A DNA stretch of 45,253 bases from the IMG/VR virus record IMGVR_UViG_3300042904_000265, positions 1 to 45,253 of that record; one strand, 5' to 3'. The position numbers and the translations under genes are program-made. The DNA comes from a virus. Position 1 is the first letter of the stretch, and each line of letters starts with the position of its first letter. This document shows positions 42,435 to 45,253 of the stretch, one piece after another. The notes beneath the pieces are model-generated. The model worked only from the letters and a program-made list of their open reading frames with translations, had not been told where the DNA came from and made no database searches.

Positions 42435-42691
42435 CCCTGCCAAACATTCCAGATGTCACCAATATGACCCCAGAAAAGTTTGTCATGTGGTGCTGTGCCG
42501 CGCTGCTCGTGTTCATTCTCTGGGGCGTGAACAGCAAGCTGGAAGCCATGATGCAGGAGCATATGGGCCTGCTCAAGGTGGCGCAAATCCAGTGCTACAA
42601 CCACGCAGAGAATAACACGGACCAGGCCGTGCGCGTGAACCAGCAACGGCGCTGTTTGACATTCCAATTAAACGCACCTACACCGCCATAA
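42431..42691 (+). CDS. Single-pass membrane protein of the lysis cassette (i-spanin-like?)
   Basis: 86 residues, MTLPNIPDVTNMTPEKF..., one transmembrane helix (WCCAALLVFILWGV), then a periplasmic helix with two later Cys. Position between holin and a lipoprotein candidate suggests an inner-membrane spanin, but heptad periodicity is weak. Confidence 0.55.
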   Translation: MTLPNIPDVTNMTPEKFVMWCCAALLVFILWGVNSKLEAMMQEHMGLLKVAQIQCYNHAENNTDQAVRVNQQRRCLTFQLNAPTPP

Positions 42692-43014
42692 TGGACCTGA
42701 TCACGATCATGGCTGCGATGTTCCTGAACCTGGCCAGTGGCTGCGATGCCATGCCGGCTGAGGCGCAGCGCATCCATGGGCAAGACTTCATGGTGCAATC
42801 ATGGGCCTGCCGTGACAAGCACGGTGAGCTGCATGTGTGGCGCACCTGGCAACGGGAATGTGTCGCACAGAATCAGTCCAGGTTCTGGGGCAGGCCCTAT
42901 TTCCTGGAAGACCCGCTGAACCATATGAGCTTCTACGTGAACCGCTTTGGCGAGCTACAGGGCGGGCAAGGGGCCACGATAGAACAGGCCTACGTGCCCT
43001 TGTGCGGCTCCTGA
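42691..43014 (+). CDS. Putative lipoprotein/secreted protein of the lysis cassette
   Basis: 107 residues. N-terminal MDLITIMAAMFLNLASGC looks like a short type II signal with lipobox LASGC (Cys18). The mature part is Trp/Cys-containing (SWACRDKHGELHVWRTWQREC). Could be the outer-membrane spanin or an unrelated periplasmic protein. Shares a base with the preceding stop. Confidence 0.5.
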   Translation: MDLITIMAAMFLNLASGCDAMPAEAQRIHGQDFMVQSWACRDKHGELHVWRTWQRECVAQNQSRFWGRPYFLEDPLNHMSFYVNRFGELQGGQGATIEQAYVPLCGS

Positions 43015-43196
43015 CCCCTGCCTTGACTTTACCAAATCCAGTTAACAGAGTGCGTCTGGGGGGCGGCAGCGTACCAGTAAGGACGCACTGAAAAGCTACC
43101 AGGGCCAGCAGGTATAGAGGGCGTCGAGTCCCTTGAGCTGGTGCCAGTGCAAATCTGGCCCGCCCCATCAACCAGGAGACAAGCCGCACGGCCTAG
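43015..43196. other. Gene-free interval between lysis cassette and exonuclease
   Basis: No gene seen. It holds the nested complementary segments listed as a candidate structured RNA at 43049-43193. Late mRNA probably reads through or ends here; no classic terminator with T-run is present. Confidence 0.6.
43049..43193 (+). ncRNA. Candidate pseudoknotted structured RNA upstream of the exonuclease
   Basis: Helices readable by eye: AGTGCGTC (43049-43056)/GACGCACT (43082-43089); GGGGCGG (43060-43066), inside that loop, with CCGCCCC (43160-43166), which makes a pseudoknot; CCAGC (43105-43109)/GCTGG (43137-43141) around AGGG/CCCT (43118-43121/43130-43133); and GCCAG (43143-43147)/CTGGC (43155-43159) around loop TGCAAAT. 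GTGCAAATC in a hairpin, CCCC-CAAC nearby and ACCAGGAGAC-GCC (43170-43185) recall core pieces of cobalamin riboswitches, but spacing differs from the canonical fold. AGGAG at 43174-43178 is 18 bases from the GTG at 43197 with a small GCCG/CGGC hairpin between, so it could govern translation. Family assignment is not secure. Confidence 0.45.
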
Positions 43197-43940
43197 GTGA
43201 AGATCCTTTTCCTAGATATCGAAACGGCTCCAAATAAGGCCTATGTCTGGGGACTGTTCGATCAGAACATTGCGCATGATCAGGTTGAAGAATCTGGATA
43301 CATTCTGTGCTGGGCCGCAAAATGGCATGGCAAACCACGCATCTATTTTGATTCAGCTGAAAAGAAATCACGCCTAGAGGCGTTGAAACCCATCCATGCC
43401 CTGCTCGATCAAGCTGATATCGTCGTACACTTCAACGGTACTAAGTTTGATATCCCCATCCTTAACAGGGAGTTCGTCAAGCACGGCCTCATGCCCCCTT
43501 CCCCCTACCGGCAGATTGACTTGTTGCGTGTGGTACGTAGAGCCTTCCGATTTGAAAGCAACAAGCTGGCCTACGTGACAGAGACCCTTGGCCTCCAAGG
43601 CAAGATTCATCACGAAGGGTTCAAGCTCTGGGTAGGGTGCATGAATGGCGACAGAAAATCCTGGCGCACCATGGGCGAGTACAATCGCAGGGATGTCACG
43701 ATAATGGAGCCGCTGTATGAACGGCTCAGGCCCTGGATTGACCGGCACCCTAATATCCCCTCCAGCCATGGGATTGGCTGTCCCAAGTGTGGCAGTAACA
43801 ATGTGCAGCGCCGGGGCGTGCAAGTGGCTATTTCGCAGACCTACCTACGTTTGCAGTGTCAACAGTGCGGGGGGTGGTTCCGGTCAAATAAGACGCTGGT
43901 GAGAGATACGGGCGAGCGAGGCGTAAACATCGCAGTTTGA
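43197..43940 (+). CDS. DEDD 3'-5' exonuclease with C-terminal zinc ribbon
   Basis: 247 residues from a GTG; ExoI FLDIETAP (D7, E9) sits at the very N-terminus, which fixes the start. ExoII VHFNGTKFDIP (N80, D85) and ExoIII EYNRRDV (Y162, D166) complete an RNase-H-like/PolB-type exonuclease fold. A zinc ribbon follows: CPKC (195-198) and CQQC (221-224). No polymerase domain. It may proofread, process ends or degrade host nucleic acid. A structured leader precedes it. Confidence 0.85.
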   Translation: MKILFLDIETAPNKAYVWGLFDQNIAHDQVEESGYILCWAAKWHGKPRIYFDSAEKKSRLEALKPIHALLDQADIVVHFNGTKFDIPILNREFVKHGLMPPSPYRQIDLLRVVRRAFRFESNKLAYVTETLGLQGKIHHEGFKLWVGCMNGDRKSWRTMGEYNRRDVTIMEPLYERLRPWIDRHPNIPSSHGIGCPKCGSNNVQRRGVQVAISQTYLRLQCQQCGGWFRSNKTLVRDTGERGVNIAV

Positions 43941-44388: not shown

Positions 44389-44590
44389 GCTGGCTATTGT
44401 CGTAGACGGTCCCGCTCTGGCCATTACTGCCAAACCATTGCCCTGGTGCACCAGGCGCAGCCGGAGGATAGTACAGGTACGAGCTGCCGTCACTATTAAA
44501 GCCCTGAACTTGCGCTGTCACTGGGCTCGCTATCTGCCCCACTGCATACCCCGACAGGAACAGGCTCAGGCATAGGATTGTTTTCAACAT
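44321..44590 (-). CDS. Small secreted protein, convergent to the late operon
   Basis: 89 residues from the ATG at 44590, which has a strong AAGGAGGAG 4-12 bases upstream. Signal peptide MLKTILCLSLFLSGYAVG with likely cleavage near residues 26-28 (TAQ). The mature part is Gly/Gln/Ser-rich (PPAAPGAPGQWFG, GQGFGQGLSQGLQG). It is transcribed with the integrase and could be expressed in lysogens, perhaps for envelope modification. It overlaps the integrase 3' end by 95 bases and the convergent gene by 68. Confidence 0.6.
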   Translation of the reverse strand: MLKTILCLSLFLSGYAVGQIASPVTAQVQGFNSDGSSYLYYPPAAPGAPGQWFGSNGQSGTVYDNSQPNLGQGFGQGLSQGLQGRRSPC

Positions 44591-45253
44591 GGGCTCCTCC
44601 TTGTGGTTGTAGGTGGGCACGGTTCACCAGCACATTCATATTCAGGGCGGCAATAATCTTTTTATTAATAGGCTGCACGTAAATCTGTGTCGTGTTCAGG
44701 TCCCGATGATTGAGCACGCCTTTGCTGATACTGACTAAGTCTAGGTGTTCCGTCAAGTCCGTCGCACAGGTCCGGCGCAAGTCCCGTTGCTGAACATCTA
44801 ACAGGCCGGCCCGCTTTCGTACCTCTGTCCACTGCAGATGCCACCATTCCTTGCTAGGCTTCCGGCCAAAGCGATTTGCAAATAAGTAGATTTGCCCAGG
44901 GGGCAGCGTAGCTAAGTACTCGGCCAGCAAATCACAGACAAATTGAGGAATAGGGACTTGCTGAGAATCCCCGTTCTTGGTCGTGGGCTTGATCCAGATC
45001 CCGACACGGCCATGTCCTGTTTCAAAAAGCTTAATGTCGGCAACCCTCGCGTTCCGTATCTCTCCTGGTCGTGGCCCTACGTAGTATCCAATATACATGT
45101 ACAGGCGGCTCATTAATGGCTCTCTGTCGATTTCACGCAGCAGGGCTGGGCGTTCCTGTTCAATCACGTAACGGGTACGGCGGTGCGCCCGTTTGCGCTT
45201 GACGCGCTGCGCGGTATTGGGACCACGATACAGCTCCCACTCGATTGCGAGAT
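44496..45253 (-). CDS. int: Tyrosine recombinase (integrase), C-terminal part
   Basis: Catalytic domain of the integrase whose N-terminus is at 1-402. In the joined 330-residue numbering the active-site residues are R140 (YYVGPRPGEIRN), K171 (PTTKNGDSQQ), R238 in QQRDLRRT, H261 (LNHRDL) and nucleophile Y270 (TTQIYVQP). The usual His of HxxR is Arg235. A 60-residue tail follows Tyr270, longer than usual and Pro/Ser/Gly-rich. The right terminal repeat lies inside this piece. Confidence 0.92.
   Translation of the reverse strand, partial: LAIEWELYRGPNTAQRVKRKRAHRRTRYVIEQERPALLREIDREPLMSRLYMYIGYYVGPRPGEIRNARVADIKLFETGHGRVGIWIKPTTKNGDSQQVPIPQFVCDLLAEYLATLPPGQIYLFANRFGRKPSKEWWHLQWTEVRKRAGLLDVQQRDLRRTCATDLTEHLDLVSISKGVLNHRDLNTTQIYVQPINKKIIAALNMNVLVNRAHLQPQGGAHVENNPMPEPVPVGVCSGADSEPSDSASSGL
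45087..45253. repeat. Terminal direct repeat, right copy
   Basis: Matches bases 1-167 with four substitutions (45213, 45216, 45222, 45228), all silent in the integrase frame. Joining the copies restores one uninterrupted integrase gene. Confidence 0.95.

Follow-up and report, generated by a model that had tools for sequence, protein, structure and literature searches.

What does the 182-nt gap at 43015-43196, directly ahead of an exonuclease gene, encode? The window, by which we mean the whole stretch of 45,253 nt that was analysed, is a linear virus record whose identified genes include those for phage terminase, portal, major head, lysozyme and integrase. Upstream of the gap lies a 107-aa ORF of unassigned function (42691-43014, plus strand), which is 84% identical in one related contig (L017), and downstream a GTG start opens the gene for a DnaQ/RNase H-fold 3'-5' exonuclease (43197-43940, plus strand; phrog_403, DNA polymerase exonuclease subunit). 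An earlier note on this DNA had described the gap as a pseudoknotted RNA with cobalamin-riboswitch-like fragments, either a cis-regulatory element or a new class of non-coding RNA, controlling the exonuclease. With moderate confidence, we propose that 43060-43167 (plus strand) instead encodes a divergent, oversized tRNA-like RNA, situated in the exonuclease leader, with an anticodon arm that would be unable to decode. What we retain of the earlier description is a structured RNA in the leader, in the shape of a tRNA-like cloverleaf, but not the pseudoknotted element of cobalamin type.

The gap and its helices

Codon usage of the gap is non-coding in all frames, and a small coding gene was rejected on that account. 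A 39-codon open frame runs from 43078 to 43200, its TGA overlapping the exonuclease GTG, and no similarity was found for it; an upstream ORF overlaps the exonuclease start likewise in L002, the nearest exonuclease relative. The element is preceded by a leader (43023-43059, plus strand) beginning at a possible promoter-like start, TTGACT (43023-43028), with a weak -10. A promoter scan did not include this start among its listed promoters, and in L017 a TTGACA also directly follows the stop codon. In the predicted folds, the last 8-11 nt of this leader have two alternative partners, 43082-43089 and the Shine-Dalgarno region. The probable Shine-Dalgarno sequence of the exonuclease is AGGAGA (43174-43179, plus strand), 17 nt 5' of the GTG and separated from it by a 3-bp GCC/GGC hairpin. 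By eye, the AGGAGA region is similar to the ribosome-binding region of L002 (ACCGGAGCCAAGCAGTGAAG), and ACCAGGAGACAAGC resembles ACCGGAGCCAAGC before the GTG of L002, whose exonuclease is 64% identical.

The helices named earlier are all present at their exact positions: AGTGCGTC (43049-43056) pairs with GACGCACT (43082-43089) over 8 bp, GGGGCGG (43060-43066) with CCGCCCC (43160-43166) over 7 bp, and GCCAGC (43104-43109) with GCTGGT (43137-43142) over 6 bp, while GCCAG-TGCAAAT-CTGGC (43143-43159) forms a 5-bp hairpin with a 7-nt loop. They are not, however, all Watson-Crick, as had been stated, since the 43104-43109/43137-43142 helix contains one G-U pair. The 7-bp pairing that had been called a pseudoknot exists, but whether it deserves the name depends on formation of the 43049-43089 hairpin; the minimum-energy fold uses it instead to close a cloverleaf, as the acceptor stem. 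The fold with the 43049-43089 hairpin and the cloverleaf are almost isoenergetic (-57.0 versus -57.8 kcal/mol, ensemble about 54:45). Taken together, the helices do not stand out: the 145-nt region is no more stably folded than its shuffles (z -0.68), and two crossing helices of at least 7 bp are found in 7.5% of gap shuffles, as they are in 38 of 496 windows across this phage. The part that does exceed chance is the resemblance to a tRNA, which had been pointed out for the 3' half only.

Cloverleaf geometry and cobalamin-like fragments

When 43060-43166 is folded alone, the minimum-energy structure and the centroid are one and the same cloverleaf (z -1.62; 12/200 shuffles), with linkers of 2/1/1/0 nt, so that the T-arm abuts the acceptor stem, and with an A73 following. 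All of its parts lie on the plus strand. The 5' strand of the acceptor stem, GGGGCGG (43060-43066), makes seven Watson-Crick pairs with 43160-43166 in both structures. After a 2-nt linker comes a D-arm-like hairpin (43069-43086) with a GCGT/ACGC stem and the 10-nt loop ACCAGTAAGG, recovered in the minimum-energy fold, the centroid and the descriptor scans described below. A long variable-arm-like hairpin occupies 43104-43142 (stem 43104-43109/43137-43142, minimum-energy fold and centroid) and is followed by the T-arm (43143-43159), a 5-bp stem with the T-loop UGCAAAU and a pair probability of 0.98. The 3' acceptor strand CCGCCCC and a discriminator-like A (43160-43167) complete the fold, with no CCA encoded directly after. 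The acceptor, D- and T-arms are thereby in canonical register, in the folds as in the descriptor scans. The anticodon-arm position (43088-43102) is stunted: where a tRNA has a 5-bp stem and a 7-nt loop with U33, the fold gives 3 bp (CUG/CAG) and the 9-nt loop AAAAGCUAC, in which no U33 stands before a GCU triplet. Moreover, T-loop position 55 is a G, and the D-loop has no clear G18-G19/A21 pattern.

The nearest standard relative in shape is a class II tRNA (RF00005), with which the element shares the 7-bp acceptor, the 2-nt linker, the 4-bp D-stem, the 1-nt linker, the long variable arm, the 5-bp T-stem with its 7-nt loop, the absence of any nucleotide between T-stem and acceptor, and A73. It differs in its size (107 nt plus A73), in lacking a functional anticodon arm and U33, in G55 and the atypical D-loop, and in scoring below all tRNA thresholds. 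Indeed, ARAGORN at default settings reported no genes in the window, whether ordinary tRNA, tRNA with an intron or tmRNA, and with lowered thresholds it returned only noise on both strands. The Rfam tRNA model RF00005 found nothing for the whole element or the window at its detection threshold of 29 bits; it matches 43126-43167 to the 3' end of a tRNA, but with a sub-threshold score of 11.4 bits. A tmRNA was rejected, there being no ARAGORN or Rfam match for a tRNA-like domain with an encoded tag, and the Rfam scans gave no match, yjdF included.

How often such geometry arises by chance was estimated with a descriptor consisting of a 5-bp T-stem with the loop TNCRANY, a directly following 7-nt strand whose perfect complement lies about 35-110 nt upstream, and a 4-bp D-stem 2 nt inside. 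The full descriptor matches once in the window. Among 2163 shuffles (98 Mb, one strand each), the T-arm and acceptor occurred together four times, and never with the D-arm in addition. By extrapolation from the rate of D-stems among looser matches (21/601), all three in register are expected about 1e-4 times per window on both strands, an estimate to be taken with a margin of one or two orders of magnitude, since the element was already known when the descriptor was applied. Natural sequence (3.85 Mb, both strands) yielded 118 matches, 56 of them ARAGORN tRNAs and 62 others, a count enriched by the many loci that had been fetched by tRNA-like patterns. The 62 others are recognisable oversized tRNA-likes, save for this element and its copy L001, and include no unrelated false positive.

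The 17-nt T-arm GCCAGTGCAAATCTGGC itself occurs in ten viral stretches, of which two are ARAGORN tRNA-Met genes (L007, L015) and a third is tRNA-like by eye; the exact sequence is also found, by eye, in Patescibacteria tRNA genes. Three Patescibacteria genes (L107, L114 and L119) that are tRNA-like by eye carry the same unusual TGCAAAT T-loop, with G at position 55, and ARAGORN made no call for them in the excerpts tested.

To the eye, the cobalamin-like fragments are real. A hairpin with UGCAAAU on a 5-bp stem, followed by CCGCCCCAUCAAC, looks like P4/L4 and the core strand after it (10/13 positions matched, a combination seen in 0/100 shuffles), and the C-rich strand after the T-loop hairpin and AGGAGAC extend the likeness to RF00174. 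The sequence UGCAAAU is a T-loop, a motif common to tRNA T-arms and cobalamin L4, and this accounts for the double resemblance. The Rfam search that the earlier note had proposed found no RF00174 match (E up to 10; gathering threshold 31.5 bits) in the whole window, in 351 nt, in 113 nt or in the 51-nt core piece, whereas the E. coli btuB control scored 87 bits as a whole riboswitch and 17.9 bits (E 0.002) as the corresponding 51-nt piece. The GGGAA strand, P5 and P6 of a cobalamin riboswitch are all missing, with only AUCAA (43167-43171) between CCGCCCC and CCAGGAGAC. The supposed B12 box, ACCAGGAGAC..GCC at 43171-43186, is more plausibly the exonuclease's ribosome-binding region, and a search of viral contigs turned up the truncated pattern GTGCAAATC..GCCCC..CAGGAGAC nowhere else. 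With no Rfam match, free sequence drift and no covariation, the very signs that the earlier note had named as refuting its reading, a truncated or variant cobalamin riboswitch has next to no probability.

Conservation and oversized tRNA-likes in other phages

No homologues of the gap were found in phage records, among six relatives of the exonuclease or neighbouring genes, or among ten major-capsid relatives, and bacterial genomes held no prophage relative of the 107-aa gene. Because no homologue was found, the element has no covariation of its own. L017, the closest phage relative, shares 82% DNA identity in the 107-aa gene but breaks off 94 nt into the gap, and over those 94 nt its similarity does not exceed that of shuffles. 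An RNA element inherited together with the exonuclease was rejected too: ahead of the gene, 80 viral loci and some further ones leave a gap of 39 nt at most, or one of 109 nt, which in the loci inspected reads as a 35-codon ORF. That ORF, present in L024 (MLEYLLCSFLCAIDHLKYVLLLLCVFIVYNSLSKH, by eye) and about 30 loci, resembles a short membrane protein. Since exonuclease relatives lack such a leader and the L017 stretch is dissimilar, exonuclease control, which had been put forward as the function, is not a conserved feature.

The geometry itself recurs. When the same acceptor was sought in combination with any T-stem, 19 viral stretches were returned, about ten with a perfect T-stem and most of these with a D-arm as well, at 92-118 nt; five of ten oversized tRNA-likes tested passed the Rfam tRNA cut-off. 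Another scan, built on a consensus D-arm, then an oversized gap and the T-loop, returned at least 120 stretches. Among the matches listed, 87 have at least 6/7 of the acceptor and at least 4/5 of the T-stem intact, and ARAGORN reports 13 of those 87. Oversized tRNA-likes of 92-123 nt are found in many phages, and a standard tRNA finder leaves most of them uncalled. In a set of 22 such sequences, from phage contigs of which many are large, 15 of 21 predicted pairs have changed on both sides, pairs of an inserted hairpin among them, with covariation in the acceptor, the T-stem and the insert hairpin. Vibrio phage KVP40 (L276, NC_005083) has three (179301-179416, 180967-181090 and 181101-181213), annotated as tRNA-OTHER pseudogenes, one of which recurs, 90-100% identical, in 30 Vibrio phage records. 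A literature search at the level of titles and abstracts found no paper on oversized phage tRNA-likes.

Like the phage pseudo-tRNAs exemplified by KVP40 tRNA-Pseudo-3, -4 and -5 (92-124 nt), the window element has complete acceptor, D- and T-arms around an enlarged region in place of the anticodon arm. Most of the phage RNAs differ from it in keeping a consensus D-loop and a TTCGAAT-type T-loop, and its central region fits no subfamily, the best local scores against the oversized families falling inside the 95% range of shuffles or just exceeding it. One subfamily of about 110-127 nt, from phage contigs of which many are large, has, in place of the anticodon arm, a hairpin and after it a conserved CAGCAA-type motif (L158, L169, L172, L183, L187, L190, L191, L195, L203, L213, L225, L226, L247, L255 and L259); its acceptor, T-stem and insert hairpin covary, and some phages carry several copies. 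Another, of about 98 nt, has a conserved central stretch of the CTCATGGTGAAGGACCTAATGCC type (L157, L175, L196, L249, L256 and L261).

Competing readings and possible roles

The strongest rival, which we consider unlikely, is a decaying tRNA gene that has lost its anticodon arm, acquired inserted sequence and has no present function. The stunted arm without U33, the G55 and the odd D-loop would all suit such decay, as would the pseudogene annotation of the KVP40 sequences. Decay should, however, erode the acceptor and T-stem too, and these are still perfectly paired (7/7 and 5/5); in the related oversized phage RNAs, moreover, pairs are kept by covariation. Distinctly unlikely, in our view, is an ordinary non-coding leader, made of a promoter remnant and a ribosome-binding site, in which helices arise by chance in G+C-rich sequence. 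The unexceptional fold of the 145-nt region, the frequency of crossing helices in shuffles and the lack of conservation, either with the exonuclease or in the nearest phage relative, are what such a leader would give, but the rarity of three arms in register and the absence of unrelated descriptor matches in 3.85 Mb argue against it.

A cis-regulatory switch is improbable, with a slight chance only. Here 43049-43059 would pair with 43082-43089 or with the Shine-Dalgarno sequence, and folding or cleavage would control translation of the exonuclease. Two nearly isoenergetic folds are at hand for it, and predicted Shine-Dalgarno accessibility rises from 0.24 to 0.93 on removal of the leader in some contexts. 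The effect varies, however, with the length of mRNA folded, and it is not unusual, 7% of shuffled leaders doing as well; exonuclease relatives without such a leader and the lack of any Rfam match weigh against it further. The precedent would be the yjdF riboswitch, reported as tRNA-shaped and translational (PMC9142559); the likeness is a tRNA-like shape in a 5' leader, and the difference is that the window element has no Rfam match. Slighter still is the chance of an attP core: the phage integrase would then use a copied host tRNA 3' end, and a host tRNA ending in TGCAAATCTGGCCCGCCCCA would be expected. Many integrases use tRNA 3' ends, and an integrase gene is present at 44496-45251, but it lies more than 1.3 kb from the element. 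A 3'-end copy, moreover, would not bring along the matching acceptor 5' strand and D-arm that are present, and in none of 28 bacterial and archaeal stretches carrying the T-arm 17-mer (one genome per species) does CCGCCCC come next. The gap contains no direct repeats of the kind expected of att or integrase arm sites.

Precursors of tRNAs are cut by RNase P at the 5' end of the acceptor and then trimmed at the 3' end. The proposed tRNA-like RNA is probably co-transcribed with the exonuclease, as part of its leader, and most likely treated like such a precursor, RNase P being predicted to cut before G43060 and 3' processing to follow A43167. Cleavage would free a stable tRNA-like RNA that cannot decode, and would leave the exonuclease mRNA with a short leader bearing the ribosome-binding site. 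We judge that the freed RNA most likely engages tRNA-binding enzymes, whether as their decoy or as their substrate; less probably, removal of the leader serves to regulate the exonuclease. Both kinds of role, one of the RNA's own and one in leader regulation, are possible given that B. cereus tRNA-Other is a functional bacterial pseudo-tRNA (PMC3399842) and that yjdF acts in a leader (PMC9142559).

More tentatively, and with some doubt, the element might be an outlying member of a large overlooked phage group that has kept the acceptor/D/T body and swapped the anticodon arm for structured domains, with a task other than decoding, for instance as bait for host enzymes that target tRNAs or as a regulator of the gene behind it. 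Were the proposed tRNA-like RNA real, it would be a phage RNA that resembles a tRNA to the processing machinery, does not decode and stands ahead of a replication-type exonuclease. Oversized tRNA-likes, now filed as pseudogenes, as in KVP40, or left without RNA annotation, could explain part of the phage-tRNA puzzle, including evasion of tRNA-cutting host defences, and the idea is directly testable. By eye, the tRNA-likes of L142, L146 and L154 sit just upstream of a possible gene start, as in the window.
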